24,379 nt of DNA from a virus. A program made the translations under genes and the position numbers. This document shows, piece after piece, positions 5,124 to 23,143 of this stretch; the first letter of the stretch is position 1, and each line of letters opens with the position of its first letter. The stretch is from the IMG/VR virus record IMGVR_UViG_3300046011_010897, positions 1-24,379 of that record; one strand, written 5' to 3'. The notes under the pieces are model-generated. The model was not told the origin of the DNA. It searched no databases and was given only the letters and a program-made list of their open reading frames with translations.

Positions 5124-5177
5124 ACTAATTCCTTTTTCGCATTAGCCCACTGTTGCATTCAAACCCGTTGGAGCAAA

Positions 5178-5474: not shown

Positions 5475-5483
5475 TTTTGTTCC

Positions 5484-5921: not shown

Positions 5922-5939
5922 ACTGTACCTCCGTTACTG

Positions 5940-5947
5940 TATTTATG
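5940..5947 (-). promoter_or_regulatory. T4-type late promoter octamer CATAAATA
   Basis: On the minus strand CATAAATA overlaps the end of the ligase-like gene and sits upstream of the holin-like gene. A leader of about 13 bases carrying GGAGG would follow. Confidence 0.7.
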
Positions 5948-7562: not shown

Positions 7563-7939
7563 TTTAGTTTTTGAAGAATTAATGTTATTCTATGATCACT
7601 TGGTATTTTTGTTAAATCAATCTCAGGTATTCTTTTTGGAAGTATCTGTAAATATTCTAAAAAAGCCTTCAAGTACGGATGAAATTTTGGACAGATCTTA
7701 AAAAATAGTATTCTACAACAGGCTTCGTTTCCAAAAACATTGTTTAGTAATATAATATGATTTAAGATCAGTCTTTCTTTTAAATCTTTTGTTTTATCAA
7801 ATCTGTTTAATAGTCTCTTAATGTATTTTATTTTCATTAAATCATCATTAAATTCGTTTATACCTTTGCAGAACGGATTGTCATACGCCTGCATGGCATA
7901 AATCATAAAATTTTCATCATTAAGAAACTCAAACTTCAT
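7559..7939 (-). CDS. Conserved-looking phage protein of unknown function (126 aa)
   Basis: The protein begins MKFEFLNDENFMIYAMQAYDN and is mainly helical, with several Cys (39, 74 and 75 regions and later) and many aromatic residues in the middle (LILNHIILLNNVFGNE). From memory, very similar proteins occur widely in cyanophages and other marine T4-like phages as an uncharacterised family. There is no signal peptide or catalytic motif. The stop overlaps the ATG of the ligase-like gene, so translation is coupled. It lies seven bases after the 164-aa gene. Its conserved place suggests a core role, possibly virion assembly or gene control, but this is only inference. Confidence 0.7.
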   Translation of the reverse strand: MKFEFLNDENFMIYAMQAYDNPFCKGINEFNDDLMKIKYIKRLLNRFDKTKDLKERLILNHIILLNNVFGNEACCRILFFKICPKFHPYLKAFLEYLQILPKRIPEIDLTKIPSDHRITLILQKLK

Positions 7940-7946
7940 TTTGTAT

Positions 7947-8441
7947 TCAGGCTTCTTCGATTATTGCATTAATCATATAAAGACCGGCTTTATCTCCACC
8001 CTCCGGTTTTGCAATCTTCATTTTTAAAACATAGTTTCTTCCGTCGAAACCGTTAGTTGTCTCAAATCCTTTTGATAAATCATGGGTTGGAGATGTACCG
8101 AATGTACCACCAAATCTCTTGAGTGGGAATCTATATTCAGTCTCTGGTTCTAAGGCAGTTGCACGGTTGAAATCAAAATCAACACCAGCCAAGTTCATCT
8201 TTGCACGAAGAACATAAATGGCAGATCGAGGATCAACATATGATTTAGAGCAGAATGCTGTAATAAACGCATTCATCTTGTGCATATCATGTGGATCGTC
8301 ATAATTGACGGGTTTTACCTCGTCGTTTGCTGATCTGCCCTTAGACTTTAGAACAGGATCAAATCCCATTCCGCCTCCCTCGGAGGTTTGTTCTTCGTTA
8401 ATGTCTAACATTTCGGATCGTAGTTCTTTAAATCGTTTCAT
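7947..8441 (-). CDS. Conserved-looking phage protein of unknown function (164 aa), possible tagged N-terminus
   Basis: The 164-aa protein starts MKRFKELRSE, close to the T4 capsid-targeting peptide in layout, with I14-N15-E16 just after as another possible prohead-protease site. A disordered acidic/Gly stretch follows (17-45), then a compact domain (50-160) with SYVDPRSAIYVLRAKM and RFPLKRFGGTFG. From memory, cyanophage proteins share this second domain; no function is known to me. GAGG upstream of the ATG and a late promoter octamer further up support the start and late expression. Whether it is a head protein is uncertain. Confidence 0.68.
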   Translation of the reverse strand: MKRFKELRSEMLDINEEQTSEGGGMGFDPVLKSKGRSANDEVKPVNYDDPHDMHKMNAFITAFCSKSYVDPRSAIYVLRAKMNLAGVDFDFNRATALEPETEYRFPLKRFGGTFGTSPTHDLSKGFETTNGFDGRNYVLKMKIAKPEGGDKAGLYMINAIIEEA

Positions 8442-8456
8442 AGAGTCCTCTTTTGT

Positions 8457-9014
8457 TTATTTATGTGGTTTTACAACTCTGAGCCTGAATTTGATATGTG
8501 GCATTTCTTTCTTTAGAGATCCAACTGCTTCTACATTTGCTTGGTGATCATCCATGAATTCAACATGGGATACTGGTTTTTTTGATTTTCTTTCAATATA
8601 AGACTTGAGAGCAGTTCTTTTTGCATTTGGATCAGAGGAACCAACAGCCAAAACAGTCAGTTTTTTCCCCTTTATGCCTCTTTTTTTCAAGTATTTTCTA
8701 ATATTTGTCTCTGCTTCCGGTGGTCTTGCTGTTAAAATTACTACTTCTTTTTTCTTTCTAGAAGTTCTTCTTGCTATTTTATCAGCAGGGTTTAATGGTT
8801 CTGCATCTCCAACATGGGCAAATCCAGAGAAATCAAGTTCGTGATCGTCTTCGGGTTTAAAACTGGCAAATTCACCAGAACTTAATTCTCTTGTTTCTCC
8901 TGTTTTTTTATGTCTAACAATAACCTTTGATTTAGTTTTTTTTACTAGCGTGTCATCAAAATCAAAAACTCTAACTTTTCTCTCTTCATTTAAAAACCAA
9001 ATAAACGACTTCAT
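8457..9014 (-). CDS. HAD-superfamily phosphatase with capsid-targeting-like N-terminus
   Basis: The 185-aa protein has all main HAD signatures: D18-F-D20-D21-T22 (motif I, nucleophile D18), LTARP with T95 (motif II), a Lys-containing helix around 132-137 (motif III) and FMDDHQAN with D155/D156 (motif IV). The order and the ILTARPPE sequence resemble the phosphatase half of T4 polynucleotide kinase, so it may remove 3' phosphates from nucleic acids, though the substrate is not proven. Residues 1-10 (MKSFIWFLNE) align position by position with the T4 internal-protein targeting peptide, suggesting the enzyme is packed into the head and cleaved after E10. The start overlaps the upstream stop (ATGA). 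Confidence 0.85.
   Translation of the reverse strand: MKSFIWFLNEERKVRVFDFDDTLVKKTKSKVIVRHKKTGETRELSSGEFASFKPEDDHELDFSGFAHVGDAEPLNPADKIARRTSRKKKEVVILTARPPEAETNIRKYLKKRGIKGKKLTVLAVGSSDPNAKRTALKSYIERKSKKPVSHVEFMDDHQANVEAVGSLKKEMPHIKFRLRVVKPHK
8458..8465 (-). promoter_or_regulatory. T4-type late promoter octamer CATAAATA
   Basis: On the minus strand the octamer overlaps the stop of the phosphatase gene (cat aaa taa) and lies upstream of the 164-aa gene. It gives a leader of about 11 bases with GAGG. Confidence 0.7.
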
Positions 9015-10084
9015 TTTTTGCCTTTTTTCTTTTTTACTGTTTTCTTTTTACCTTTTGGTTCTTGTCCGCGTTTTCTAAGTTCAATATAGGTTGCCAATCT
9101 ATATTTGGCATTTTCTTCTGTGTCTTTTCCCTTTATTGGTTTTGCTTTTACTCTTTTTGCAATTTTATCTCTACTCTTTATTTCTTTCTTTGTCATTGTT
9201 CCTGCGTGTTTTGCATTTACAATTTCTTCATTTACTTGAAATAATTTATCAAATAAAACTGATGCTCTTTTTTTTAACTCCTCTGTTAGTGGTTCGTTTT
9301 TGTTTTCTATTTCTTCATTTACTGATTTCCATCCACCACCATGTTTTTTATACCATTTTGATGCCCATCCATTTGCGTATGCGCTTGGATAAACTTTAAA
9401 TTTTCTTTTTGCTAATGCTTTTGCTTTTGCCCAAAGTTTTGGATTTGTTGGTTTGTTTTTTCCTTCGTTTAACACACTATATTCAACTATATCACCATTG
9501 TTTATTGTTTTTATTGAAAGAATATCATCGTATGAAACTCCAACAGTTTCTGTATTTGTTAAAAGTTCAAATTCTTTTCCTTCTTTGATAATTTCATTTG
9601 ATGCTATTTTTAAAAATCCTTTTTTAGTTTTAAATTCATTATTTTCATCTAAAAATTGAATCATTACAGTTTTGTTTAAAAAGGAGGAATCAAGATTATT
9701 TAATATAATTTTATCAAAAGAATATTGAAAGTTTTCTTCAATTAATTTTGTGTTTTTACTTTTTACAAAATCTGTTATTTGTTTAATGAATGATTCTTTT
9801 ATGTTTTTGTGTGAAGTCATGACAGGTTTTCTTCCTTGTTGCGTTGTACTAACTTTTGATTCTGCTGATCTTTTTTGTCTCACAGCACCTTTTTTTTCTT
9901 CCTTTGACATCTCACCTGATGTTTCTGGTGTTTTAGAGGACACTCGAACAGATGGTCTGCACTTTGGATATTTAGAGTCAGTTGCTTTTTCTCTACCACA
10001 TGGAGGATGTTTTCCACTTTTGGTTTTACGGGAAATATCAACCCATTTTTCTCTAAACCATCTTCTTAAATCTTCGTTAATCAT
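9011..10084 (-). CDS. Basic phage protein with two small conserved domains, possible internal head protein
   Basis: The 357-aa protein is strongly basic. Residues 1-75 hold WVDISRK, PCGRE and YPKCRPS; the two cysteines (29, 42) and the spacing resemble a short metal-binding domain seen in many phages. Residues 209-253 (PTNPKLWAKAKALAKRKF then YPSAYANGWASKWYKK) match another small domain that I recall from phage and giant-virus proteins. Both are domains of unknown function. The end is a long Lys tail. MINED at the start and LNEG (205-208), just before the second domain, fit prohead-protease sites, so the protein may be cut in the head. It lies between the GAF-like gene and the HAD gene with ATGA overlaps on both sides. 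Confidence 0.72.
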   Translation of the reverse strand: MINEDLRRWFREKWVDISRKTKSGKHPPCGREKATDSKYPKCRPSVRVSSKTPETSGEMSKEEKKGAVRQKRSAESKVSTTQQGRKPVMTSHKNIKESFIKQITDFVKSKNTKLIEENFQYSFDKIILNNLDSSFLNKTVMIQFLDENNEFKTKKGFLKIASNEIIKEGKEFELLTNTETVGVSYDDILSIKTINNGDIVEYSVLNEGKNKPTNPKLWAKAKALAKRKFKVYPSAYANGWASKWYKKHGGGWKSVNEEIENKNEPLTEELKKRASVLFDKLFQVNEEIVNAKHAGTMTKKEIKSRDKIAKRVKAKPIKGKDTEENAKYRLATYIELRKRGQEPKGKKKTVKKKKGKK

Positions 10085-10710
10085 ATACTACCTTTTTTCT
10101 GAGAAGCCAATTGAACTTCTATGGAACTTTTTGCTTGTTCCATTTCATATTTAACAAGAGTCGGTTCTGCTTTGTCTAAATGTGAGTCACTACACCATTG
10201 AAGCAATATAAAACCAGTGATTTGATTTTTTACTTTAAGTGGTAAAACTGAAAAACCTGTTACGTTATTTTCTTCAAAAAATTGACGACAGAACGAATAT
10301 GGTATGTCGTATATTGAAATAATTTTTGCATTATTTTCTAAAACCAAATTTAATAATGGCAAAAACATTGAACACAACAATCCTTTTATTCGTTCAGAAT
10401 CAGTTGTAAGTCCTACCTCAACAGATTCATGTGTTACGGAAAATTTACGCATGGAAACTCCGTCCATAAAATATTCCCCATTATGAAATTGTATAACTTG
10501 TGCCCGAGCACCATTTGTTTTTACTCTTAATTCGGTTAAAGTTTCGTGAATTTGAGTATGAACATCTATAAAACTTTTATTTTCTTGCTCGGAGTCTTTC
10601 TTTTTACCAAACAATTTAATAAAACTCACTATAGCACCAAACACAACAGCAGTTACAATTCCTGTTGCTTCAAACCATGAAAATAAATTACTTGTTGTGC
10701 TTGATGCCAT
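10081..10710 (-). CDS. Membrane-anchored protein with GAF-like domain
   Basis: The 209-aa protein has one membrane helix near the N-terminus (about 14-34, TGIVTAVVFGAIVSFIKLFG) followed by a basic KKK, so the rest is probably cytoplasmic. Residues 55-200 look like a GAF-type sensor domain (RAQVIQFHNGEYFMDG, then ISVLPLKV-like FSVLPLKVKNQITGFILLQW). No catalytic motif is seen. The start (GGGAG nine bases upstream) lies inside the 3' end of the 1129-aa gene and the stop overlaps the next ATG. It may sense a small molecule or anchor a complex at the membrane during infection. Role unknown. Confidence 0.65.
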   Translation of the reverse strand: MASSTTSNLFSWFEATGIVTAVVFGAIVSFIKLFGKKKDSEQENKSFIDVHTQIHETLTELRVKTNGARAQVIQFHNGEYFMDGVSMRKFSVTHESVEVGLTTDSERIKGLLCSMFLPLLNLVLENNAKIISIYDIPYSFCRQFFEENNVTGFSVLPLKVKNQITGFILLQWCSDSHLDKAEPTLVKYEMEQAKSSIEVQLASQKKGSI

Positions 10711-13700
10711 GTTTAACTACTCCCTTTATTATTTTTTTAATTGGATCTACTGAATATGGTGTAACTGAAAGAAATTTCTTTCTTAATTCGTCGGTTCCTT
10801 CTTCGCCGGCTCCATGTTCTTCATTCATTGATCTGTTTTTACTTTTTGAAAGAACTCTAAGATTGGAATCTCCATTGTTTTGTGGATTTCCATCTTCGTG
10901 GTGAACATCTTTTCCATCACCTTTCTTCACTTTTCCTTTTTTCATCATTTTTCTGCGAGCCAAAACCCGTTTAGATCTATTTGCTCTTTGTTCAGGTTTA
11001 CCATGATAATTTTTGTATTCTTTTTTGTAGTTTCTTGCTTCTATAACAAACGATTCATACAGTTCTGGTTTAATTAAACTAGTCTCCCACATTTCATTTA
11101 ATATAGAACCAGCATCTATTTTTTCTATTGATTTTGTTATTGTTTCCGGTGAGACTAGACCGGAGGTCAAAATCAAAGTAAGTGCTTCTTTATTTTCTAA
11201 ATTTTCTACAATAAAATCATTAATAAAGTCATATGTTTCGGAAAGTTGTTGTGGTAATTCCTCAAACTGTTGGAAGTCCTGAACTGGTATTGCTACCTGT
11301 TGTTTTCCATCTATGGTAATGATATTATAGTTTCTCGCAGAACCTTCCATGTAATCAGTTACATCTAATTCATTTGATGTAATCATTGCCGGTTCTAAGT
11401 CGCAGTATTCCATAAACATCATAACATCATCACCAATCATTCGTAAATCTTGTTCTACAATTGCTGCATTGTTTGCAAAATTTGTTTGCAAAAAAGGTTC
11501 ACTCTGTTCGGTTAGTCGTGATGGTTTATAATCAATGTTATAGAGGGTGGAAAGAGTTCTAATTTTCTTTCCTCCGCTTTTTCTAGATCTTCCTTTAAAA
11601 GCACCTCTAAATTGTAAATCTGGAACAATTCTTTGAATCATTTTTTCAGAAATAGCCTCTAGTTTTACACCAGTTCCGTCTGCGTTTACACCTAGAACGT
11701 AGTTTGCTGCCTGTAGAGTGTCGCTTCCAAATTTTTCATTTCCTGTGAAAGATTCTAATATTAGACCCATTTTAAATTCTTCACTGGCGTCGAATATTTC
11801 TTGAAGTTTTGCAGCAACTTGACTTGCCAATTTTTCTTGTGATTCAACAATTGCTCTATATTTTGCAAATTCTTTATCTTTTGGTAGTTCACCTGATGCT
11901 GCTATTTTTTTAATTTCTCCAATTTCGTATTCGCCCAATTCGGCTGATTTTGCAAACTGAGAAATCATATCCTTTGCTTGTTTAAATAGTTTTGCAACTT
12001 TTGGACTTTTTGCTACTATGTTTCCAGCATAACGATTAGCAGCCTCTACTGTGGCAATTGCTTCTCCAGACTCTCCATTCAATATTCTGGCTGCACCACA
12101 CTTCATGCTTGCTCTTATGCATTTTTTAGGATCAATATTTTCTAGTTTACCTCCGGAGGCTTTCCATACATCGGCAGGAACAAGAACGACATCAGATTTT
12201 GATGTGGCGTTTACACCACCAGCACTCAACCATTGCTTGGTTAGTTTTCCGTTGTTTTTACCCATGTGTATCGCAACAACAGGACCAACTTGTTTTATTA
12301 TTTGATCGACTGCTCGTTGTGCAGCAGCAGCCAACGTTTGACTTTTTCCTATTTTTTCGGTTATACCTTTTACATCAGTATCAGTTTTTGCTTTTAACAT
12401 CTGATTTAACATAAAAGGAATTGCTTCCTCTAACTCAGTAGCACTATGATCCCAATCGTCATATTGTGACTTTGGTGATGTTACTTTTTTCCCTCTTGGT
12501 GGTACTTTTGGAAGAGGAAATTGCTTTTGAAGAACTTCTTTTGGTGGTTTTTTTGTTAATGTAGACTTTTGTTGAGTCTTTTTCTTTGTTTTACTTTTCT
12601 CATTCTTTTTTGCAGATTTTGTCTTTCCCTTTGGTTTTGCTCTTGAGAACTCTGGGAATAGTTTCTTTGAAGAATCAGTTATTTCAAATTTAGGATCTTG
12701 AAGATACTTTTTTGCCTGACCTCTACTAAACTTTTCGGGAGATACAACAACTTTTGACTTGCCAATGTCTTCTTTCTTTACGATTCTTATTTTTTTATCA
12801 GCACCAATAACTACAGCAAAATTTGGTTTTCTTTTTGCATGTCGTCGTTCTTCTCTTTTTCGATGTTTATCTTTTTCTGTTTTATTTCTTGCAGGTCTAG
12901 ATTCTGCTCTTGTTTTTGAAAGAGTCCTAGAAGGAGAGTCGATTGCTTTTCTTTTTGCTTCAAATAAAATGTTCTCTAACATAGTTCCTCTTTTTGGTTG
13001 TTTGACAGTACCAACTCTTCTTGGCGGTTTATCAAGACCTAGTGCTGCTTCTTTTTGCTTTGCTCCAATAATTTCTCTGGCGAAACGAGTTCTTACATGA
13101 AAACGAGTTCTTGCTACTCTTGCTGCTCTTTGTCGTGGTGATTCTCTGTTTACAATTGCTGCTTGATGTTGTCTATACAATGCAGTATTCAGTGTATTTT
13201 TTCTTTTTTGTATTGTTGCTTGAACTATTTGTGCTTCAGCAAGCATATTCATAAATTCTTCAATTTTAGCAACAGAGAACATTTCTGTTAGTTTTTTCTT
13301 TCTTTTTGTTGCTGCTCGCTCTCTTGCTTTTTTGTTTCTCTCTAGTCTTGCTTTTTCTTCTGCTGCCGGTACTACATCTTTAAATTGTTTAGAAATCATA
13401 TCTGCATAATGTTTTTGTTTTTTTGCCGCATGAATTGAGTCTGGCATAAATGCATGAGCCAATTCAGTATCACCAGCAAGTATTGCTTTTCTTAGTCTTC
13501 CAGCCTTTGCGTGTTCTACTGGAATCCTACCATCTTTTACTAATGATTTTAATTGTGGTAACGACAATTCCTCTTCACTTCGTTTTTCTGCAAGTGAGTG
13601 AAAATCAACTTTTACTCTATGAACAGTTTTTTGATTTGATCCTAAAATACCACCATGAGTTGTTATGTGTTTTTCAATTGCTGCTCTTAGACTTTTATCT

Positions 13701-14077
13701 CCTGTCATTTGATCAGGTCCTAAAGCAACCGTAATGTGCTTGTGGCCACCCTTTTCGATCAAATGAACAATTTGATGTAATGGAGAAATAGATGACTGTT
13801 GGGGAACGATCCCGAATGTCATTCTTGTCTTTGGCATCCCTTTTTTAATATATTCATGGGAACCACGAACTATTTGTTCTTTTTGTTTAAAAGAAAGAGG
13901 TGCATCTTGTCTGTTTTCAGATGCTCCCAATCCATGATAAAAATGACTGTAACCAGCACCGTGTGCGTGTTGCGCTGCAAGTTTTGCAACTTCCTCGTGT
14001 CCTCTGGTGTATGGGTTAAATGCACCTGTCACCAAAAACGCAGAGCCTACTTGTTTTGCTTCATTTAATGTATTCAT
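10688..14077 (-). CDS. Giant basic protein: N-terminal nucleotidyltransferase, C-terminal HNH, several predicted head-protease sites
   Basis: The 1129-aa protein starts with an HxGH-type nucleotidyltransferase fold: TGAFNPYTRGHEEV (17-30) and KAGRLRKAILAGD (191-203), as in NMN or pantetheine-phosphate adenylyltransferases, with T replacing the first His. Next come very Arg/Lys-rich regions (about 240-520), a helical middle (550-780), and a C-terminal HNH-like module (1054-1080, GDGKDVHHEDGNPQNN) after a basic segment. It carries [L/I]-x-E followed by A or S at residues 4-7, 279-282, 371-374, 549-552 and 773-776, the consensus cut by T4 prohead protease, so it may be a head polyprotein. The ATG has GGAAAG upstream and a late-type octamer further up. 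It may help condense DNA and enter the host with it. Confidence 0.7.
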   Translation of the reverse strand: MNTLNEAKQVGSAFLVTGAFNPYTRGHEEVAKLAAQHAHGAGYSHFYHGLGASENRQDAPLSFKQKEQIVRGSHEYIKKGMPKTRMTFGIVPQQSSISPLHQIVHLIEKGGHKHITVALGPDQMTGDKSLRAAIEKHITTHGGILGSNQKTVHRVKVDFHSLAEKRSEEELSLPQLKSLVKDGRIPVEHAKAGRLRKAILAGDTELAHAFMPDSIHAAKKQKHYADMISKQFKDVVPAAEEKARLERNKKARERAATKRKKKLTEMFSVAKIEEFMNMLAEAQIVQATIQKRKNTLNTALYRQHQAAIVNRESPRQRAARVARTRFHVRTRFAREIIGAKQKEAALGLDKPPRRVGTVKQPKRGTMLENILFEAKRKAIDSPSRTLSKTRAESRPARNKTEKDKHRKREERRHAKRKPNFAVVIGADKKIRIVKKEDIGKSKVVVSPEKFSRGQAKKYLQDPKFEITDSSKKLFPEFSRAKPKGKTKSAKKNEKSKTKKKTQQKSTLTKKPPKEVLQKQFPLPKVPPRGKKVTSPKSQYDDWDHSATELEEAIPFMLNQMLKAKTDTDVKGITEKIGKSQTLAAAAQRAVDQIIKQVGPVVAIHMGKNNGKLTKQWLSAGGVNATSKSDVVLVPADVWKASGGKLENIDPKKCIRASMKCGAARILNGESGEAIATVEAANRYAGNIVAKSPKVAKLFKQAKDMISQFAKSAELGEYEIGEIKKIAASGELPKDKEFAKYRAIVESQEKLASQVAAKLQEIFDASEEFKMGLILESFTGNEKFGSDTLQAANYVLGVNADGTGVKLEAISEKMIQRIVPDLQFRGAFKGRSRKSGGKKIRTLSTLYNIDYKPSRLTEQSEPFLQTNFANNAAIVEQDLRMIGDDVMMFMEYCDLEPAMITSNELDVTDYMEGSARNYNIITIDGKQQVAIPVQDFQQFEELPQQLSETYDFINDFIVENLENKEALTLILTSGLVSPETITKSIEKIDAGSILNEMWETSLIKPELYESFVIEARNYKKEYKNYHGKPEQRANRSKRVLARRKMMKKGKVKKGDGKDVHHEDGNPQNNGDSNLRVLSKSKNRSMNEEHGAGEEGTDELRKKFLSVTPYSVDPIKKIIKGVVKHGIKHNK

Positions 14078-14109
14078 TTAGTCTTTCCATTCAACAAATC
14101 CCGATAAGA

Positions 14110-14117
14110 TATGTAGA
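14110..14117 (-). promoter_or_regulatory. Variant late promoter octamer TCTACATA
   Basis: On the minus strand TCTACATA sits just after the terminator of the NUMOD-like gene and about 27 bases (predicted leader) before the ATG of the 1129-aa gene. The same octamer, with the exact five-base spacer, precedes the gene at 20038. Confidence 0.5.
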
Positions 14118-14144
14118 AAAAGAAAGCCGAGTCTTTACTCGGCT
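14116..14144 (-). terminator. Rho-independent terminator after the NUMOD-like gene
   Basis: AGCCGAGT (14125-14132) pairs with ACTCGGCT (14137-14144) across a CTTT loop. On the minus strand it is followed by a T-rich run (TTCTTTTTC). It separates the nuclease pair upstream from the 1129-aa gene. Confidence 0.8.
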
Positions 14145-14175
14145 CTTAGTACACCCGGAGAGTATTTTGGGTGAC

Positions 14176-14517
14176 TTATTTAAGTTTTTCTACTTTGACG
14201 AAACCTTTATGGCTTTTTCTCTTACCAGCCATGAGTTCGTACATAGCAGACTTGGAAAGATCGTGATTACGGCAGAATTCCACAAAATTATCTACCAAAA
14301 ACACCACGCCGTCATTCTTTGTGAATAACCACAATTTATTTGGAACTTTTTCTTGTTGTGGGGGAATTTCATTCCAAAACCATGCATTTCCTTTTTTCTC
14401 AAACACGCCACCATATTTTTGAATAAAAGCATCTCTATACTTGTGGGAATTAGACATTCCATTTGCTTTCACCCATTCTCTACTATTTACTTTATTAATT
14501 AATGTTTTCACGCTCAT
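14176..14517 (-). CDS. Small DNA-binding protein with NUMOD-like C-terminal module
   Basis: The 113-aa protein has a C-terminal stretch (about 64-110) with FVEFCRNHDLSKSAMYELMA, GKRKSHKGFVKVEKL. This resembles the helix-turn-helix modules at the ends of T4-type homing endonucleases. There is no GIY-YIG or HNH nuclease motif, so it looks like a stand-alone DNA-binding module or the remains of a homing endonuclease. Residues 1-60 are unassigned. AGGAG lies nine bases before the ATG; the gene overlaps the end of the exonuclease gene by 23 bases. It may act as a repressor of the neighbouring genes, by inference only. Confidence 0.65.
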   Translation of the reverse strand: MSVKTLINKVNSREWVKANGMSNSHKYRDAFIQKYGGVFEKKGNAWFWNEIPPQQEKVPNKLWLFTKNDGVVFLVDNFVEFCRNHDLSKSAMYELMAGKRKSHKGFVKVEKLK

Positions 14518-15163
14518 TTGAATAACTCCTAAAATTATCTATTGCATTCTTTAATTTGACAACGTAATTTATAGGATTCCGTTGAAATACTTGAACATCT
14601 CCATTTTCGCAAGATATAATTATGCATATATTCTTTACGGGAACACCAAATCGTTCTTGCCACATAACAGAATATGCAGTTGTTTGTGTAAAGTAATTAT
14701 CAATATCTTGCTCACGTTTTGGTTTTGTGCTACCTTTGAAGTCTATGATGGATAGTTTTCCATCAAATTCACCAACACAATCTACTCTACCAGCCAACCC
14801 TAAAGTTTTACTGAATAGAGGTGCTTCTAAACCATGAATATTATCAATTCGATCTATAGTGGTTTTTATCTGGAGGAATAAGTCCAGTATGTCCACCGAC
14901 ATCTCTTTCGTATTGAGTTCTTGGTTTTCTAGGTATTTTTCTATGACGGAGTGAAGGTTTGTTCCCCTTTTTGTTACCCGTCTTGATTCTGCTTGATTGT
15001 TTTTTCGCCATTCTGCGAAGAATATTCTTTTTTCCCATCCAGTCACCGTTGTAACAGAAGGATAATATTCACCCTCACAGAGATATCTTCGACCATTTTG
15101 ATCTTCGACTGACTCAAGAGGAATGAATTCGTGTGGAATATGTACAAATTGTTTTTGCAACAT
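14495..15163 (-). CDS. RecB-family / MGME1-like exonuclease (PD-(D/E)XK)
   Basis: The 222-aa protein has the core of RecB-type nucleases: a Ser-rich entry motif YYPSVTTVTG (33-42), H71 in GTNLHSVIEKYL, E113 in GLEAPLFS, D128 in LAGRVDCVGEF, and D141-F-K143 in SIIDFKGS, followed by Q160 in FTQTTAYS. Metal-dependent cutting of single-stranded DNA ends is expected, as for the mitochondrial exonuclease MGME1. In a phage it could process recombination or replication ends. A sigma70-like promoter sits right before the ATG, unlike the late promoters nearby, so early expression is likely. No Shine-Dalgarno site is visible. Confidence 0.85.
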   Translation of the reverse strand: MLQKQFVHIPHEFIPLESVEDQNGRRYLCEGEYYPSVTTVTGWEKRIFFAEWRKNNQAESRRVTKRGTNLHSVIEKYLENQELNTKEMSVDILDLFLQIKTTIDRIDNIHGLEAPLFSKTLGLAGRVDCVGEFDGKLSIIDFKGSTKPKREQDIDNYFTQTTAYSVMWQERFGVPVKNICIIISCENGDVQVFQRNPINYVVKLKNAIDNFRSYSNERENIN

Positions 15164-15166
15164 TAC

Positions 15167-15194
15167 ATTATAAACAATATTTCACAAAAATCAA
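15167..15194 (-). promoter_or_regulatory. Sigma70-like promoter TTGATT-16-TATAAT
   Basis: On the minus strand TTGATT (15194-15189) and a perfect TATAAT (15172-15167) are 16 bases apart and fill the gap before the exonuclease gene. The predicted start site falls at the ATG, so the transcript would have almost no leader. Confidence 0.65.
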
Positions 15195-15938
15195 TTATTT
15201 TTTATTGTGTTTCTTTTTGTTTTTGCCAGAAAATTCAGAGGTAACATCTCTATTTTTTTCATCAAATATTCTAAAGTTATCTTTTCCACTGATGATACGC
15301 ATTACTCCCTTGTGGGAAACTGCTGTTCCTCTTTTTCTTACACCCTTTTCGGTGAAAGAAATTTTATAGATTTTCTTTTTGTGTTTTTTAAGTGTATTAG
15401 CAGAGGAGTCTTTTACTTTTTCTTCTGACATATATCCGCGAACTAGTCTTTGCATTGGATCTGCCGCTACTGCTGCTTGTGCTTGTGCTAAATTTTGATA
15501 TTGAAACCCGTATACATTTGCGGTTTCTTCTCCATCTGATCCTTGCTGTTGATCTTCCTCATCTCCCGATTTTTTTGATGGATCTTTTGCAAGTCTGGCG
15601 CGCATTGCTCTACCTCTGGCAATCATACCAGACATGTTTGCTTCTAACATAATCTTAAATACATCAACTGGTTCGTATTCGTTTATAAGTTCATCTATGT
15701 TTTCGCTAAGTTCTACGGATTCTACTGGTGTTTCGCTCATGAAACGAGCAATTCCAACCTCCGTCAAATAATCCTCTTGATCTTCGGTTAATTTGACTTG
15801 AAACTTTTCCTCAAACTGATTCATAGTCTTTTCTAGTTGTTCTGCAATAACATGAAATTCCTCTGGAAAAGAGGGTTCTTGCTTGTTTACAATTTGATTA
15901 ACAACGTTTAAAATTGACTTCTGTTTTGATGTGTCCAT
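15195..15938 (-). CDS. 247-aa acidic helical protein, unknown function
   Basis: The start at 15938 (MDTSKQKS) is chosen over an ATG 15 bases upstream, because GGAG lies seven to ten bases before it and the late promoter would start the mRNA after the upper ATG. Residues 1-115 are acidic and helical (EDQEDYLTEVG, SENIDELINEYEP). A charged, Gln/Glu-rich linker holds DEEDQQQGSDGEE (about 134-146). The C-terminal part (185-247) is basic: it reads KIYKISFTEKGVRKRGTAVS and ends in a Lys-rich tail. An acidic-helical plus basic layout would suit a head core or scaffold protein, and IMLEAN near residue 100 is a weak protease-site match. This is inference; no family is recognised. Confidence 0.62.
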   Translation of the reverse strand: MDTSKQKSILNVVNQIVNKQEPSFPEEFHVIAEQLEKTMNQFEEKFQVKLTEDQEDYLTEVGIARFMSETPVESVELSENIDELINEYEPVDVFKIMLEANMSGMIARGRAMRARLAKDPSKKSGDEEDQQQGSDGEETANVYGFQYQNLAQAQAAVAADPMQRLVRGYMSEEKVKDSSANTLKKHKKKIYKISFTEKGVRKRGTAVSHKGVMRIISGKDNFRIFDEKNRDVTSEFSGKNKKKHNKK

Positions 15939-15954
15939 GTAGAATCTCCGCATT

Positions 15955-15962
15955 TATTTATA
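15955..15962 (-). promoter_or_regulatory. T4-type late promoter octamer TATAAATA
   Basis: This is the exact T4 late consensus on the minus strand. It predicts an mRNA starting with GGAG about 11 bases before the ATG at 15938, so the Shine-Dalgarno site is at the very 5' end. Confidence 0.85.
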
Positions 15963-15963
15963 G

Positions 15964-15971
15964 TATACATA
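15964..15971 (+). promoter_or_regulatory. Variant late promoter octamer TATACATA (divergent)
   Basis: TATACATA lies one base from the opposing TATAAATA box. It drives the small gene at 15999 with a predicted leader of about 22 bases that carries GAGGAA. Confidence 0.55.
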
Positions 15972-15998
15972 CTTTTACATCAACGAGGAATACGCAAA

Positions 15999-16235
15999 AT
16001 GGATATTTACAAAAGTGCTAGACTTATAGGCGCAAGCGGAAAACTAAAGAAGAATAAGGGTATCATGTTGGTTGGTGCCGCTAGTGCAATAGTAGAATTT
16101 CAGGGAATGTCCGGTGGAAACTGGGTTTCTACTGGTTCTTTAGGAGTAACTGGTCTTGCTGGAACTGTTACGGTAATTCCAGTATCTGTTTACGGAATTA
16201 CCTTGTCAACTGGTTCCGTTCTAGAACTCAATTAA
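15999..16235 (+). CDS. Small beta-rich protein (78 aa), possible virion protein
   Basis: The protein is rich in Gly, Ser, Thr and Val and predicted to be mostly beta strand (GASGKLKKNKGIMLVG, TGSLGVTGLAGTVTVIPVSV). It has no Cys, no signal peptide and no catalytic motif. GAGGAA lies 10 bases before the ATG. A variant late promoter precedes it. Its size and composition fit a small head-decoration or tail-associated protein, but no match is recognised. The stop codon overlaps the end of the convergent lysozyme gene within the palindrome CAATTAATTG, so each gene uses the other strand of the same bases. Confidence 0.68.
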   Translation: MDIYKSARLIGASGKLKKNKGIMLVGAASAIVEFQGMSGGNWVSTGSLGVTGLAGTVTVIPVSVYGITLSTGSVLELN

Positions 16236-16815
16236 TTGGTTTAGAAAATAAAGCACCCTCTTCGCCGCGTCTTCTTACAAGGCCCCGAAGAACGGTGACT
16301 TTATTTTGTTTTACATCAAATCCTTTATTATACAAATTCAAAGCAGCAGGAACTTTGTGCCAGTTATCTGGGTGACTCAATGCATGAGTTATAGTTCCAA
16401 AGTTTTTATGACCATAAAAATTTTCTCCTGCGTTATAGGAAAAACTGATTAATGCCGCTTTTTGATGATCATTCATTGAATGCCAATGTGGTATTTTTGA
16501 TTGTAATTTTGGAATAACAACGTTGTGTATGTGGTGTTCGTGCTCTTTTAACGCGGTTTCGTGTGTTATAGTGTCTCCCGCCTGAACTGCTCTACCATCG
16601 GAATAGCGAGTATTTCCATAACCTATAGTCCAAACACCGTCATGGTTGTATGCTTTTGATCTAAAAGATTCGTGTCCTTTGATCAAATCAGCAGCAATTT
16701 CATGTGCTCTACTTGTTGGTGTTTCTTCTTTTGTTTTTGATTCTACCTTACCAGAACCAATTTTAGATTGTGGTTGAGTTATTTGTGTTTTAGATGAAAC
16801 CGATGGTGCAGTCAT
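16228..16815 (-). CDS. GH24 lysozyme (endolysin), probably extended upstream by frameshift
   Basis: Residues 38-190 form a T4/lambdoid-type lysozyme that cuts peptidoglycan glycan strands. HESFRSKAYNHDGVWTIGYG (48-67) holds the catalytic Glu (E49), an Asp (D59) and Thr (T63), and later GEEGAL is near the end. SFSYNAGENFYG (127-138) is typical. The first 37 residues are a Ser/Thr/Lys linker. The listed ATG at 16815 has no Shine-Dalgarno site. The same frame stays open upstream for 22 more codons, encoding a Gly/Ala-rich hydrophobic stretch (LVTGTALGLGLGGSIIAG), but it has no ATG, GTG or TTG. It meets an A10 run inside the upstream gene, so the real product is likely fused to that gene by a -1 shift or slippage. 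Confidence 0.85.
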   Translation of the reverse strand: MTAPSVSSKTQITQPQSKIGSGKVESKTKEETPTSRAHEIAADLIKGHESFRSKAYNHDGVWTIGYGNTRYSDGRAVQAGDTITHETALKEHEHHIHNVVIPKLQSKIPHWHSMNDHQKAALISFSYNAGENFYGHKNFGTITHALSHPDNWHKVPAALNLYNKGFDVKQNKVTVLRGLVRRRGEEGALFSKPIN

Positions 16816-16883
16816 TGCGCGGTGACCGGCAATAATAGAACCACCGAGTCCAAGACCAAGAGCAGTTCCGGTTACTAGCGTCT

Positions 16884-17453
16884 TTAATCCACTATTTTTT
16901 TTTTAATTAGTGCTTCTTCCAAACGATTCATAATCCGAACTAAATTTGCTTCTTCGTTAAACTGTTCGGAAAGATCTGGTAGTCCTCTAAATTCGTGTTT
17001 TCCACCAACAAGAGAAACACGATATGGAGATGCTTCTTTTTCTGTCTCAAGCATGTCACCCACGGCACCAGTACCAGCGTGAAGATGTAGTGGTTTTTTT
17101 GCTCGACCACCTTTTTCCTTGAAGTAAACGGTGATGTGTCCGCTTTCAGATGGTGCTAATTGAGAAACAACGTGTCCTCTTCCCCTTGGATCAACCAACA
17201 TCAATGTTCCCTGATGTTTTACTAAATTGTGATCTGTGGCTGGTGCTTCAAAGTCTGGTGTTTGTCTTACTCTGATTGTTACAATTTTATCAGAGTCTAT
17301 GGCTTTTGTAATTGCAGCATGAGTTTTTTGTGCTGCTTCTAATCTGGCTTTTTTTGTTATTACTATGTCTGGACGTTCCATCGCCTTCAACATGGTTTCT
17401 TTCATGCGAGACTCTACGAGTTCTTTGTATTGATTTTTTAAATTTTCGTTCAT
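16884..17453 (-). CDS. 189-aa protein of unknown function, upstream part of a possible lysozyme fusion
   Basis: The protein starts MNENLKNQYKELVESRMKET (helical) and has a middle beta-type domain (50-165) with GTLMLVDPRGRGHVVSQLAP and KPLHLHAGTGAVGDML, where the His cluster could bind metal or a nucleotide. No family is recognised. The end (EANLVRIMNRLEEALIKKK) is helical and contains LEEA, a prohead-protease-like site, just before the A10 tract. A variant late octamer lies upstream with a leader of about 17 bases. Together with the lysozyme it may form one virion or envelope protein of about 400 residues. Confidence 0.65.
   Translation of the reverse strand: MNENLKNQYKELVESRMKETMLKAMERPDIVITKKARLEAAQKTHAAITKAIDSDKIVTIRVRQTPDFEAPATDHNLVKHQGTLMLVDPRGRGHVVSQLAPSESGHITVYFKEKGGRAKKPLHLHAGTGAVGDMLETEKEASPYRVSLVGGKHEFRGLPDLSEQFNEEANLVRIMNRLEEALIKKKIVD
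16895..16904 (-). other. A10 slippery tract joining two genes
   Basis: Ten A on the minus strand lie 12 bases before the stop codon of the 189-aa gene. A -1 shift, or one extra A, moves reading into the lysozyme frame. It reads through a membrane-like segment into the endolysin without a stop. Confidence 0.7.
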
Positions 17454-18321: not shown

Positions 18322-18726
18322 ATGGACCTATTCCTACAAAAGAAAATCATAAACGAAAAAAACGAATTAGAGAAAAAACTCTATATGGCAAATAAAAAAA
18401 TGGCAAACTTAGAAGAAGAACTTGCCTTTTATAAAGAGTTTTTTGCCAAAACTCAAATTGAAGAAGAACTAAAAGGCAAACAACATAAAATTGATGCCAA
18501 TAAGAATAACAAAATTGATGCTGAAGACTTCAAACTTCTTCGTAAAAAAAAAATAAATGAAAGTCATACTTTAGATCAACTCAAAAAATTAAATAAGATA
18601 AAATTGCGTGGGTTGAAGTCAAAATATGAAAACAAAATTAATACTGCAAAAACTACAGCAGAAAAAAATCACCACAAAGATGAATTGAAGAACATCAACC
18701 ATCTTTTAAACAAAGACAATAAATAA
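18322..18726 (+). CDS. 134-aa coiled-coil protein with EF-hand-like loop and head-protease-like sites
   Basis: The start at 18322 (MDLFLQKKIINEKN) is chosen for its AAGGAG and the late promoter; an upstream in-frame ATG at 18292 would be missing from the mRNA. Residues 1-50 are a coiled coil almost parallel to the start of the protein at 22169 (MDYFYQQKLINEKN). Residues 58-69 (DANKNNKIDAED) fit an EF-hand calcium loop at positions 1, 3, 5, 8 and 12. INE at 10-12 and INES at 78-81 fit prohead-protease cleavage. The C-terminal part is Lys-rich and helical. It may be packed into the head. Only one EF-hand is present, and calcium binding is not proven. Confidence 0.72.
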   Translation: MDLFLQKKIINEKNELEKKLYMANKKMANLEEELAFYKEFFAKTQIEEELKGKQHKIDANKNNKIDAEDFKLLRKKKINESHTLDQLKKLNKIKLRGLKSKYENKINTAKTTAEKNHHKDELKNINHLLNKDNK

Positions 18727-19424: not shown

Positions 19425-20013
19425 TGTCTAGATCCTCGTACTTAGGTGGAACTGCTTTGCCACCATCAACTATAACACCATTCAACGTCTTGTCAACCTT
19501 GACTTCGGGAGTATTGAAACAATCCCATTCCATTGCAGTGATATACCCGTGTCTAGAGTCGGGGTGCATCAATTCCAATACATTTTTCCTCGCCTTGTCG
19601 CGCTCGGCGGTCAAACGGTCAATCTTCTCCAATAAAATCTTATCCTGACCCTCAAGGAATATCTTGAAGTCATTGACAGACGGTGGAAATCCAAGTCCTC
19701 TTGGATGATCCTTGAAGCAATCCCAACCACGCGAATTGGCATAGTCACCCGCAAGGAATCCTGTCAAATGGTGAAAGCCACAGACTTCCCGCCTCGCTTC
19801 ATCCCGCTCCTCACGCAACTTCTTGTTCATCTCGCCAACAGGCTCACAGGCTGTGCAGGAACCCTCAAAGCCATCCCTGAGCATCTGAATGCGCTTCTGC
19901 AAGTCGTTGATGTATTCATACGCCTCACCAATGTCCCGCAGAACATCAGAAGGGAGATCGGTGCGCTTGGTATGGCAGCGTAGGCGGTAGTCTAGGGGTT
20001 CGTAGTCAGTCAT
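19417..20013 (-). CDS. 198-aa protein with duplicated ERDxAR...GWDCF module
   Basis: Two similar blocks are seen: ERDEARREVC...SRGWDCFKDH (about 68-104) and ERDKARKNVL...AMEWDCFNTP (about 137-169). Each is a short helix followed by a WDCF motif. An N-terminal coiled coil (INDLQKRIQMLRDGFEG) and CTAC lie before them. From memory, RDEARREVC-GWDCF-type repeats occur in other phage and metagenome proteins without known function. No Shine-Dalgarno site is clear. It starts only 24 bases from the divergent late gene at 20038. G+C is high (60% in 19921-19980), unlike the rest of the window. Confidence 0.68.
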   Translation of the reverse strand: MTDYEPLDYRLRCHTKRTDLPSDVLRDIGEAYEYINDLQKRIQMLRDGFEGSCTACEPVGEMNKKLREERDEARREVCGFHHLTGFLAGDYANSRGWDCFKDHPRGLGFPPSVNDFKIFLEGQDKILLEKIDRLTAERDKARKNVLELMHPDSRHGYITAMEWDCFNTPEVKVDKTLNGVIVDGGKAVPPKYEDLDNV

Positions 20014-20024
20014 AGTTTTAGTAT

Positions 20025-20032
20025 TCTACATA
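20025..20032 (+). promoter_or_regulatory. Variant late promoter octamer TCTACATA (leaderless geometry)
   Basis: TCTACATA lies exactly five bases before the ATG at 20038, the same spacing as at 3598, 4370, 21233 and 23239. No Shine-Dalgarno site is visible. Identical to the box at 14110. Confidence 0.6.
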
Positions 20033-20037
20033 CTTCT

Positions 20038-20709
20038 ATGTTGAGATTCAAGCAATTTATTTCAGAAGATATGCCTTATCTTGATGATGAGTACGAGCAA
20101 AGCAAAGAGGATAAGGCATTTAGAGCGGCAGACCTTCGCCAAAGATTAAAATCTTTGGATGCAGCCAAAGGTGATACTCCTTTAAAGAAAATAGGAGAAA
20201 TTGGACCATATGAAGTCCATCATGTCCCCACTGAAATGGTTGGATCAATTGGCGGCCACATATACAGGCAACATCATGCTGTTGTTACTCATAAAGGCAA
20301 CCGAGTTGGAGTAGTTACTTTTTCGGAAGAAAAACCAGGTTTTATGAACCTCCCAAAACATTTGGTGTCTCAACATCCATTGTTTCAATTAAGTCATAGT
20401 GGAAAGAAAGCCAGGGTGTCTGGATTGCCATCTCATGTTTATAAAATGATATCACAGCATTTGAATATGCCTGTCGTTAGTGGCGCCCGACAATCCAGAG
20501 GCGGGCAAAATGTTTGGAAAAATTTGGCAAAAATGGGAAAAGTAAGTGCCTTGAATACACGAACAGGAGAACGCATACATGATTACGATCCAGATAAGCC
20601 AGAACACCATAACACAGTATATTCATCGACTTCGGGCGGTGGTCATCAATCTGGGTACTATTGGCTTTTAATACATCACCCAGAACAACCAAAAAAGGAA
20701 AACCCATGA
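20038..20709 (+). CDS. 223-aa late protein with capsid-targeting-like N-terminus
   Basis: Residues 1-10 (MLRFKQFISE) align with the T4 targeting peptide MKTYQEFIAE, with aromatic residues at 4 and 7 and E at 10, so it is probably packed in the head and cleaved after E10. The rest has an acidic helical part (11-60) and a mixed alpha/beta domain (60-215) rich in His and Gly (GGHIYRQHHAVVTHKGNRVG, SGARQSRGGQNVWKNLAKMG). The second segment reminds me of an acetyltransferase-type fold in phage proteins, but no catalytic residue is clear. The next gene overlaps its stop. Confidence 0.72.
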   Translation: MLRFKQFISEDMPYLDDEYEQSKEDKAFRAADLRQRLKSLDAAKGDTPLKKIGEIGPYEVHHVPTEMVGSIGGHIYRQHHAVVTHKGNRVGVVTFSEEKPGFMNLPKHLVSQHPLFQLSHSGKKARVSGLPSHVYKMISQHLNMPVVSGARQSRGGQNVWKNLAKMGKVSALNTRTGERIHDYDPDKPEHHNTVYSSTSGGGHQSGYYWLLIHHPEQPKKENP

Positions 20710-21224
20710 ACAAAAAACTACTAAACGAAATAGGCGACACTCCAGCAGGACAAAGAGCACTAAAGCGGCTTCGTATATTCAGAACACACGAAGCAGAATC
20801 GGCTAAAACTGGCGAAGCAATAGAGAAAAAATTTGGAACACCAGAAAAAGCAGGTGAATATGCCAAAGAATATGAAGACAAACAAAGAATCATAAACATG
20901 ATAAAAAAGAGAATGGGAGAACCTGTGAACGAAGGTGTGCTGAGTAATCTCGCCACTAAAGCAGGAACCGCAGTAGTTGGTGCAGCAACACAAGTAGGAA
21001 AAAGGATAGTGAAAGGCATCGAAAACTTGCCAAGTAATAAAGCATTGCTTGGTGGACTACTAAATGCCGGTTCTGAAATTGCTCAAGGGCGACGAGAAGA
21101 AAAACAAATGCCCACCCTAAAACAAACACCACACGGACTACACACTCTAGGATCTGCCGCGGGCGAAATTGCTAAAAAACTGGAGGCGGATAAACGAAGA
21201 AGAAAAGCTTTCGGCAATCCCTAA
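20706..21224 (+). CDS. 172-aa basic helical protein, possible internal head protein
   Basis: The start at 20706 (MNKKLLNEIGD) uses the ATGA overlap with the previous stop and an AAAGGA site. An upstream ATG at 20661 lies inside that gene and lacks a ribosome site. LNE (6-8) near the N-terminus and VNEG (about 74-77) fit prohead-protease motifs loosely. Residues 10-70 are charged helix. A Gly/Ala/Val-rich segment (about 78-105, LATKAGTAVVGAATQVGKRI) could be an amphipathic or weak membrane helix. The end is very basic (KKLEADKRRRKAFG). Function unknown. Confidence 0.65.
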   Translation: MNKKLLNEIGDTPAGQRALKRLRIFRTHEAESAKTGEAIEKKFGTPEKAGEYAKEYEDKQRIINMIKKRMGEPVNEGVLSNLATKAGTAVVGAATQVGKRIVKGIENLPSNKALLGGLLNAGSEIAQGRREEKQMPTLKQTPHGLHTLGSAAGEIAKKLEADKRRRKAFGNP

Positions 21225-21232
21225 ACACCTAC

Positions 21233-21240
21233 CATAAATA
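21233..21240 (+). promoter_or_regulatory. T4-type late promoter octamer CATAAATA (leaderless geometry)
   Basis: CATAAATA is followed by five bases and then the ATG of the gene at 21246, as at 3598 and 4370. There is no ribosome site, so a leaderless mRNA is predicted. Confidence 0.75.
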
Positions 21241-21241
21241 A

Positions 21242-21276
21242 TTTCATGCTCACCTTTCGGCAATACCTCTCAGAGA
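21242..21276 (+). repeat. Copy 1 of a 35-bp repeat encoding the capsid-targeting peptide
   Basis: The block spans the end of the promoter spacer, the ATG and codons 1-10. It differs from 23248-23282 at only one base, while the sequences on both sides diverge. The two downstream proteins are otherwise different. Confidence 0.88.
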
Positions 21277-21764
21277 TCTTTCGTGGTAATCAGACAGCGA
21301 ATAGAGGGGAACCACACCCGGATCATCCAGATAGAACTATTGACAAAGAAGATTATGTCGTGTATCACCACAAACCAAGAGGAGAAAATGGTTTTGTCAT
21401 ATCTGACAAGACTATACACACATCATTCGTAAAAAAGCCCTACTGGGATCATCATTGGGAAGTTTTGTTTTCAGTGGGTGGCACTCACAGCAAGAATCCA
21501 ACTCATGATTTTCCATCAGATGTCACCAAACGAGTATTTGATCACTTTTCACATTTTGTGAGCAGTCAGATTCATAAAAACGGCAAACCCCCTGTTTTAG
21601 TTTACGATACAACACATCCAAAAAAACACCGCATCTACCAAGCCGGTGCGCGACGATTAGGCATCGAAGCAAAGAACCTGGCTCCATTGGACAAAGAATT
21701 GGATCGCGGTGGTTCAAGAAGTTCACGACGAGAGAATGAACCGTGGTTGCCGGTTGCAGGATGA
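21246..21764 (+). CDS. 172-aa late protein with capsid-targeting-like N-terminus
   Basis: Residues 1-10 (MLTFRQYLSE) match the layout of the T4 internal-protein tag and are identical to those of the protein at 23252. The rest is a His-rich alpha/beta domain (HHKPRGENGFVISDKTIHTS, DHHWEVLFSVGGTHS) with VFDHFSHFVSSQIHKNGKP then VLVYDTTHPKKHRIY near 100-140. It lacks a signal peptide or known catalytic motif. The general plan (strands, then a helix starting with a DH-x-x-FA/S motif, then a QT/TTHP-type loop) is similar to the 23252 product, so the two may be distant relatives. Likely packed in the head; role after injection unknown. Confidence 0.7.
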   Translation: MLTFRQYLSEIFRGNQTANRGEPHPDHPDRTIDKEDYVVYHHKPRGENGFVISDKTIHTSFVKKPYWDHHWEVLFSVGGTHSKNPTHDFPSDVTKRVFDHFSHFVSSQIHKNGKPPVLVYDTTHPKKHRIYQAGARRLGIEAKNLAPLDKELDRGGSRSSRRENEPWLPVAG

Positions 21765-21770
21765 TAAATA
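21763..21770 (+). promoter_or_regulatory. T4-type late promoter octamer GATAAATA
   Basis: It overlaps the stop of the upstream gene and predicts a 15-base leader with AAGGAA before the ATG at 21791. Confidence 0.75.
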
Positions 21771-21790
21771 AAATATCAAGGAATCTACTC

Positions 21791-22168
21791 ATGGATGCAA
21801 ATAAACAAATCAAAGCCGTTGCTGACGCATATCGTCAAATGAAATTGGATGAAGTCTATAGGCTCACACCAAAAAGACGCGCGGTATTAGATCGCATAGA
21901 TTCGGCCGCAATGGATCAAATGGACATTCATCTTGACGCGCCAGGTGGTCACGAAGCATACAACAAATCAATGCTCGGCGGCGCACACATGACAAGAACC
22001 GAATTGATGCGGCAAATGGCACTACCTCAAGACAAAAGAGGTGGTGCGTGGGCAGGAGCATCAGACGAAGAACTGAAGAGCGCAATGATTGGTGCAAGAG
22101 GCACACAAAAGAACATAGAGGGATTATTGAGAAGAAACAATCGACTTCGCAAAAACAAAGGAAAATAA
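21791..22168 (+). CDS. 125-aa helical late protein, unknown function
   Basis: The start at 21791 (MDANKQIKAVADAYRQM) is chosen for its late promoter and AAGGAA; an ATG at 21743 lies in the preceding gene. The protein is helical and charged, with a Gly-rich middle (GGHEAYNKSMLGGAHMTRTE, GGAWAGASDEEL) and a basic end (LLRRNNRLRKNKGK). No capsid-targeting peptide is clear at the start. The stop abuts the ATG of the next gene directly. Function unknown. Confidence 0.65.
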   Translation: MDANKQIKAVADAYRQMKLDEVYRLTPKRRAVLDRIDSAAMDQMDIHLDAPGGHEAYNKSMLGGAHMTRTELMRQMALPQDKRGGAWAGASDEELKSAMIGARGTQKNIEGLLRRNNRLRKNKGK

Positions 22169-23143
22169 ATGGACTACTTTTACCAACAAAAACTCATCAA
22201 CGAAAAGAATCAACTTCAACGACAACTCATGGAAGCCAATCATGAGTTAAATCAACTCAAAGCAATTGTTCAAGAAATGACAGAAATTTTAGGTGCTGAA
22301 CCTCTTAAAGAAGGTAAACGCAGGGTGGGAAAATTACGGCTTGATCTTGATGATCCAGTTGTGAAACCAGAAAAACCACTATCTCGTTCCCAAAAAAATC
22401 TTGATCTTGATCTTGATGATCCGGCGGGAGCCGTCGATATGGCTCAAAGAGGACAACTTCCCAAAGCAGCAACTAAAAGACCACTCGGAACTCGTCCGGT
22501 GACAGAGGATATACAGACTCCTGAACGTGCAGCAGAGACCGCCAGCGTGGTAAGAAGACTTGGACGAGAAGCGACCAGATTAGGCAAGAGATCGGATGCT
22601 ATCTACAAAAAAATATATGGAGTTGATGTTGACAAAGTCAATACCGTTGGTGATCTTGGTAGAATAGGGTTTGGCGGTGTAGATCCATATGATACTAGTT
22701 ACCCCGATTCCGTTGATGCTTATGTTGATGCGGTAGCCGCAAAAGATCAGGCAGAAGCGAGAGCCGAACGCGAAAGAAAACACCCCACGAAGATTTATGG
22801 CCTCGGCGGAAAGATTGTGGGAACAAAAGCAAAGAAGAAAAGACTGAAAGAAGACTTACAGACTCCTGAACGTGCAGCAGAGATGGAAACTGAAATAAAA
22901 GATTGGACCAAATACGTTAACCGATTGGGTAGACGTTCAAACGCACTTTGGAACGCGATGTATGGTAAAAAAGCAACAGTATCACCAGCCACCGAGCCAA
23001 TGGAATTCGCGGATTCCGTTGATGATCTTATTGATGCGAGAACAGCATTAAACGACGCGATAAAACAAAACCAACGTGAAAAAAGATCCAAAACATTATA
23101 CGGCAAGGGTGGTAAGGTAATGAGAACCCCCCGTAAGAAATAA
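22169..23143 (+). CDS. 324-aa protein with tag-like coiled coil and two tandem repeats
   Basis: Residues 1-35 (MDYFYQQKLINEKNQLQRQL and onward) match the start of the 134-aa protein at 18322. LINE (9-12), LMEA (20-23) and LKEG (46-49) fit prohead-protease sites, LMEA and LKEG most closely. Residues 58-64 and 78-84 are acidic LDLDDP repeats. Two tandem domains follow (about 115-219 and 229-323), each with the order QTPERAAE, LGKRSDA/LGRRSNA, Y-D/A-DSVD, then YG-GGK near the end. The duplication looks old at protein level but shares 26 identical DNA bases. Basic C-terminus. It ends before a strong terminator. Probably a late, head-associated protein; function unknown. Confidence 0.7.
   Translation: MDYFYQQKLINEKNQLQRQLMEANHELNQLKAIVQEMTEILGAEPLKEGKRRVGKLRLDLDDPVVKPEKPLSRSQKNLDLDLDDPAGAVDMAQRGQLPKAATKRPLGTRPVTEDIQTPERAAETASVVRRLGREATRLGKRSDAIYKKIYGVDVDKVNTVGDLGRIGFGGVDPYDTSYPDSVDAYVDAVAAKDQAEARAERERKHPTKIYGLGGKIVGTKAKKKRLKEDLQTPERAAEMETEIKDWTKYVNRLGRRSNALWNAMYGKKATVSPATEPMEFADSVDDLIDARTALNDAIKQNQREKRSKTLYGKGGKVMRTPRKK
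22513..22538 (+). repeat. 26-bp direct repeat, copy 1 (second copy at 22858-22883)
   Basis: The identical block begins each of the two tandem protein repeats and encodes QTPERAAE. The DNA is identical although the rest of the repeats has diverged, which suggests gene conversion or selection on this segment. Confidence 0.9.
22858..22883 (+). repeat. 26-bp direct repeat, copy 2
   Basis: Identical to 22513-22538; opens the second domain of the same protein. Confidence 0.9.

Follow-up and report, generated by a model that had tools for sequence, protein, structure and literature searches.

In Escherichia coli, dnaX undergoes a -1 ribosomal frameshift at A_AAA_AAG, for which an upstream Shine-Dalgarno sequence and a hairpin act as stimulators. 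Among phage lysozymes, Lyz of phage P1 is a signal-anchor-release (SAR) endolysin, whose hydrophobic segment is N-terminal and acts as the export signal. Homopolymers of A or T that are nine bases or longer are prone to slippage in many bacteria, and at the A9 tract of Thermus dnaX the slipped product makes up about half (PMC1088944). In this study, we analysed the 24,379 bases of IMG/VR virus record IMGVR_UViG_3300046011_010897 (hereafter the window), which on sequence grounds is from a T4-like phage, its exonuclease being about 45% identical to cyanophage exonucleases. Here, a lysozyme ORF lies out of frame with the ORF upstream of it, with a long A tract at the junction (Table 1).

Table 1. 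Features of the lysozyme locus, in window coordinates
Feature	Position	Strand	Basis or remark
N-terminal partner ORF, 189 aa	16884..17453	-	ORF list; N-half of the 408-aa fusion
A10 tract	16895..16904	-	A_AAA_AAA heptamers inside; length suffices for transcriptional slippage
Start-less open stretch, 29 codons, lysozyme (-1) frame	16816..16902	-	Frame reading
Gly/Ala-rich hydrophobic segment LVTGTALGLGLGGSIIAG	16825..16878	-	Aligns with KAVGGGLALAGAVIGG of L002; internal in the fusion
Lysozyme ORF from first ATG, 195 aa, linker + GH24 domain	16228..16815	-	ORF list; PF00959
GH24 phage lysozyme core	16258..16680	-	PF00959, residues 46-186

The coordinates agree with an earlier note on this DNA, which had placed the lysozyme in the -1 frame of the 189-aa gene and traced it back to the A10 tract in the last codons of that gene. 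In frame 0, the 189-aa ORF ends with ATT AAA AAA AAA ATA GTG GAT TAA, the stop falling just past A10, while the opening in the -1 frame begins at TAA 16905-16903, at the head of A10, and runs to the ATG. The two ORFs overlap by about 20 nt, and joining them by a -1 shift gives 408 aa. The same note held that the lysozyme frame has no usual start upstream, and indeed its 29 codons contain no ATG, GTG or TTG; its length of 22 codons for the open stretch was too short, the LVTG...HRA part alone amounting to 21. The lysozyme matches PF00959 over profile positions 1-125 of 125 (E=1.2e-19, 71.3 bits, cut-off 22.3), and the candidate catalytic region HESFRSKAYNHDGVWTIGYG, inspected by eye for the catalytic Glu and the Asp/Thr after it, has a Glu and one residue fewer before DG. 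No known domain or relative of the 189-aa N-part was found in the Pfam, PHROG and phage searches.

A 75-kb IMG/VR contig, IMGVR_UViG_3300034092_003233 (L002), has the same gene order as the window and carries the two ORFs as one. The homologue check that the earlier note had proposed thus came out in favour of a fusion: a single 400-aa ORF of L002 comprises the N-part (sharing 63% identity with the 189-aa ORF), an A12 tract at the same place as A10, the Gly/Ala-rich segment, the linker and the lysozyme (66% identical to that of the window). In the -1 frame, the 27 codons past A10 align with L002 with a score of 37, compared with 4.8 +/- 7.1 for shuffled sequences (0 of 2000 as high), and the other two frames of these codons gave no match to L002; the 29-codon opening by itself is not significant. 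At the position of the window lysozyme ATG, L002 has a Leu codon. Among the L002-contig ORFs that correspond to one in the window, this gene alone is split by a frame change; each of the others keeps one frame. Given that L002 has a single ORF with Leu at the ATG, that the junction matches in the lysozyme frame alone and that the other ORFs stay in frame, the fused protein is, as judged from these comparisons, the real product family of this gene, and the intact form of the gene is the fusion. Between the window and L002, dN is 0.28 and dS 2.3 for the N-domain, and dN is 0.30 with dS saturated for the lysozyme; both halves are constrained, indicating that the lysozyme is not decaying.

L002 is the one close relative on which the frame comparison is based (n=1). 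No further relative of the N-domain or the fusion was found among viral contigs, whether these were searched with the two proteins, with alignments A1 and A2 or with the gene at 20038-20709, and queries using the adjacent exonuclease or a DNA pattern conserved in it likewise led to L002 alone; nothing was added by searching genome contigs with the lysozyme or phages with the N-domain, although near-identical records may not be displayed by such searches. The AlphaFold model of the L002 ORF, built on a three-row alignment, was poor (pLDDT 52). In a PDB fold search, the C-part of this ORF matched lysozymes alone and the N-part had no match.

These data bear directly on whether the lysozyme could be a separate gene that initiates, weakly or by coupling, at ATG 16815. 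An ATG does exist there, many window genes lack a Shine-Dalgarno sequence, and stand-alone or ATGA-coupled lysozymes occur in other cyanophages. The earlier note was right that this ATG has no ribosome site (Shine-Dalgarno energy of -2.4 kcal/mol, equalled by 34% of random sites), which is weak evidence because about half of the window genes are also without one. More telling is L002, in which the frame runs through the position: the note had named a translation start mapped at 16815, with homologous lysozymes that begin there, as what would count against fusion, and L002 has no Met there. In addition, the L002 linker is the aligned counterpart of the 40 residues downstream of the window ATG, conservation of the 29 codons that precede this ATG is confined to the -1 frame, and the upstream stop is 69 nt away, too far for stop-start coupling. 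The ATG at 16815 is therefore probably not a start, and two separate genes are very improbable. Several window genes without a Shine-Dalgarno sequence have ATAAATA right before the ATG (4383, 15195, 21246 and others), resembling a T4 late promoter box by the start.

The earlier note also likened the Gly/Ala-rich segment to a SAR domain, which would make the protein a secreted SAR endolysin. The composition and weak hydrophobicity of the segment (top 19-residue mean hydropathy 1.41) are in keeping with this idea. However, the segment occupies about residues 194-211 of 408, behind a 186-residue domain, and is likewise internal in L002; if the lysozyme is read as a separate gene, its ORF has no start before the segment. 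Because the segment is internal and not N-terminal, the SAR interpretation is unsupported, and we consider it the least probable of those discussed here. The segment may serve in membrane association or as a linker.

How, then, might the window phage express a gene in this form? The explanation that we favour is that 16228-17453 (-) would be one gene, encoding an N-terminal domain of unknown function, the Gly/Ala-rich segment, the linker and the GH24 lysozyme, with the halves one base out of frame at A10. The 189-aa N-domain protein would be the standard product, and a fraction of expression would slip by -1 at A10 to yield the 408-aa N-domain-lysozyme, either through an A added by RNA polymerase or through ribosomes slipping on A_AAA_AAA. 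The fused ORF of L002, the conserved protein sequence in the -1 frame, the lack of a usable conserved start and the long A tract at the junction speak for this explanation, which we judge to be narrowly probable. Within coding sequence, A10 of the window and A12 of L002 both pass the minimum of nine A or T bases set for transcriptional slippage. As for programmed -1 frameshifting, an in-frame slippery heptamer of the X_XXY_YYZ type (A_AAA_AAA) lies in the ORF overlap, and the frame arrangement is not conserved, the sole homologue, L002, being in frame. A -1 slip in L002 would reach a stop two codons later (KKKNW*) and give a short form, the mirror of the window arrangement. No stimulatory hairpin was found past A10, where the folding z lies between 0.0 and -1.9 according to the offset (+0.8 to -1.3 in L002), and Rfam had no model for this junction or for the cyanophage junctions described below. 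Selection for the A tract itself found no support: AAA makes up 75% of Lys codons, and KKK sites written wholly in AAA (3/16) are, if anything, rarer than expected.

Of the proposal in the earlier note that the lysozyme is fused to the upstream gene by slippage, the fusion is thus upheld, and slippage at A10 is possible but unproven because L002 is in frame and the window has no hairpin of the cyanophage type. A one-base change also stands: the gene may simply be one continuous ORF, as L002 has it, with nothing programmed, and the record may contain an assembly or sequencing error or a recent replication-slippage mutation at A10. We regard this as a real possibility, if somewhat short of probable. 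L002 is in frame, the rest of the region that it shares with the window keeps frame, and no hairpin follows A10; moreover, indel errors and mutations arise in long A tracts, and A10 is the longest homopolymer of the window, tied with a second A10 (18544-18553). This second tract, however, sits within an intact ORF, so the assembly coped with that tract length there.

A survey of cyanophage loci in which a C39-like peptidase (PF13529) lies upstream of a lysozyme also bears on this question. In S-PM2 (p156/p157), the lysozyme is in the -1 frame of the peptidase, the annotated 'putative lysin' begins at an internal ATG, and the predicted trans-frame peptide reads ...FDAKKVTSSTSR... The same -1 arrangement is present in three S-CAM7 isolates and in S-SRM01, in which the ATG overlaps the upstream stop, and in ACG-2014f the peptidase and lysozyme form one fused ORF. 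An IMG/VR scan with the peptidase alignment gave 80 loci, to which isolates were added. Where the lysozyme follows in order (n=66, including duplicate records of S-PM2 and S-SRM01), it is in the -1 frame at 60 loci, fused at five and in the +1 frame at one. One of the 60 (L026) is a case of separate genes; the other 59, mostly on cyanophage contigs, overlap, and their peptidase ORFs end with A_AAA_AAG (50), with T_TTT_TTT (three, S-CAM7) or without a heptamer (six), the last having an ATG that overlaps the stop or another start. The 53 heptamer loci represent 44 distinct junction sequences, and by a count made by eye, about 41 of the 53 have no ATG, GTG or TTG in frame ahead of the lysozyme core. 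As background, A_AAA_AAG was counted 18 times in 94,093 codons, and of the four Lys-Lys pairs AAA AAG is the least frequent; the heptamer is absent from the ends of all 22 peptidase genes for which no downstream lysozyme was detected. The signal was noted in loci L020 (1480-1560), L031, L019, L022-L024 and in the range L036-L113. In S-CRM01 (L027, 1024-2333), a change of frame in mid-domain divides the lysozyme between two annotated ORFs.

A hairpin accompanies the heptamer at most of these loci. Across 35 distinct junctions with heptamer and stop, the stem has a median of 13 pairs (minimum 8) and starts a median of 5 nt past the heptamer, and several stem positions show compensatory changes, with three or four different Watson-Crick pairs. 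Hairpin arms pair with their own partners at -16.3 kcal/mol versus -9.0 kcal/mol with those of other phages (0 of 10,000 permutations; relatedness incompletely controlled). The mean folding z is -2.4 after heptamer and stop or after T7, compared with -0.5 for random 70-mers and -1.4 after the stop of loci without a lysozyme; S-SRM01-like junctions, with the overlapping ATG, have no strong hairpin (mean z -0.9). A role as an intrinsic terminator is unlikely, since its 3' arm is lysozyme coding sequence and no T run was noticed by eye after the hairpin. The sequence of these C39-lysozyme junctions fits programmed -1 ribosomal frameshifting. No earlier report of frameshifting at them was found in the freely accessible papers searched, and the accessible part of a 2016 review of recoding mentions neither endolysins nor cyanophages; the conserved slip signal has apparently gone unreported so far.

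For the window, the survey cuts both ways. With 60 of 66 ordered pairs in the -1 frame, a -1 lysozyme alone is no sign of error, and the prior that such a lysozyme is functional in these phages is raised. Yet L060, a C39 locus in a metagenome assembly, is fused through one extra A in the slip site with the hairpin kept, showing that single-A changes occur in these tracts, and our verdict is divided for this reason. The sequence cannot decide between slippage and a one-base error or mutation, and we modestly prefer slippage; its occurrence, its rate and the usefulness of both products are what we infer.

Several other features of the window were noted. The N-termini MLRFKQFISE, MLTFRQYLSE (twice) and MKSFIWFLNE (20038, 21246 and 23252 on the plus strand, 9014 on the minus strand) resemble T4 capsid targeting sequences, which are cut after LxE/IxE, and this likeness suggests that the proteins bearing them are packaged in the head. 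The N-terminus of the fusion (QYKELVE/SR; SFKPFFE/SR in L002) might be a divergent version of such a sequence. Within the exonuclease gene, a 64-codon ORF in another frame (14844-15038, minus strand) has a conserved counterpart in L002, including 75 consecutive identical bases, and is absent from S-PM2 and Syn33. Window positions 19906-22538 (compared with L005) are 91-93% identical to the L002 contig, as against about 67-72% for 5125-17402, a contrast that suggests recent exchange.

If slippage is real, the phage would set its lysozyme dose by recoding and not via a start site of the lysozyme's own, and annotation pipelines would miss such recoded lysozymes; in S-PM2 and S-CAM7, the annotated lysozymes are fragments about 72-90 residues long. 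The C39-lysozyme signal offers a model, ready for testing, of programmed frameshifting in a gene for cell-wall lysis, in phages that are common in aquatic habitats and for which cultured hosts such as Synechococcus WH7803 exist.

Like P1 Lyz, the window fusion combines a GH24-type lysozyme with a nearby Gly/Ala-rich hydrophobic segment, which is N-terminal in Lyz and internal in the fusion. In phage tail assembly chaperones of the lambda G/GT type, a frameshift also extends some of the protein molecules by a C-terminal part, although those proteins are unrelated and have no enzyme domain. E. coli dnaX shares the slip on consecutive Lys codons and the two products; there, however, shifting yields the short form, and the window has no comparable hairpin. 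Transcriptional slippage at A9 in dnaX of Thermus thermophilus similarly makes a short and a long protein from a long A tract, but there, as in L002, the DNA has the long form in frame, whereas the window has the short form in frame (PMC1088944, PMC5009743). The cyanophage C39/GH24 loci resemble the window in having the lysozyme in the -1 frame, a slip site among the final codons of the upstream domain and in-frame fused versions (ACG-2014f). They differ in their partner, the C39-like peptidase being unrelated to the window N-domain (hhalign probability 0.7%), and in their signal, which is A_AAA_AAG or T_TTT_TTT with a hairpin instead of A10 without one. Since the window lysozyme also falls outside the C39-linked clade in the tree, inheritance of its arrangement from the C39 loci was rejected; the geometry is shared and the element is not. 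It is close to an even chance, if just below it, that in cyanobacterial T4-like phages and their relatives -1 slippage has evolved more than once as a means to append a lysozyme to a fraction of an upstream protein at a fixed ratio of short form to fusion; on this reading, most of them would use ribosomal frameshifting at A_AAA_AAG or T_TTT_TTT with a hairpin and a C39 partner, and the window phage would use slippage at poly(A), its partner domain being unrelated.
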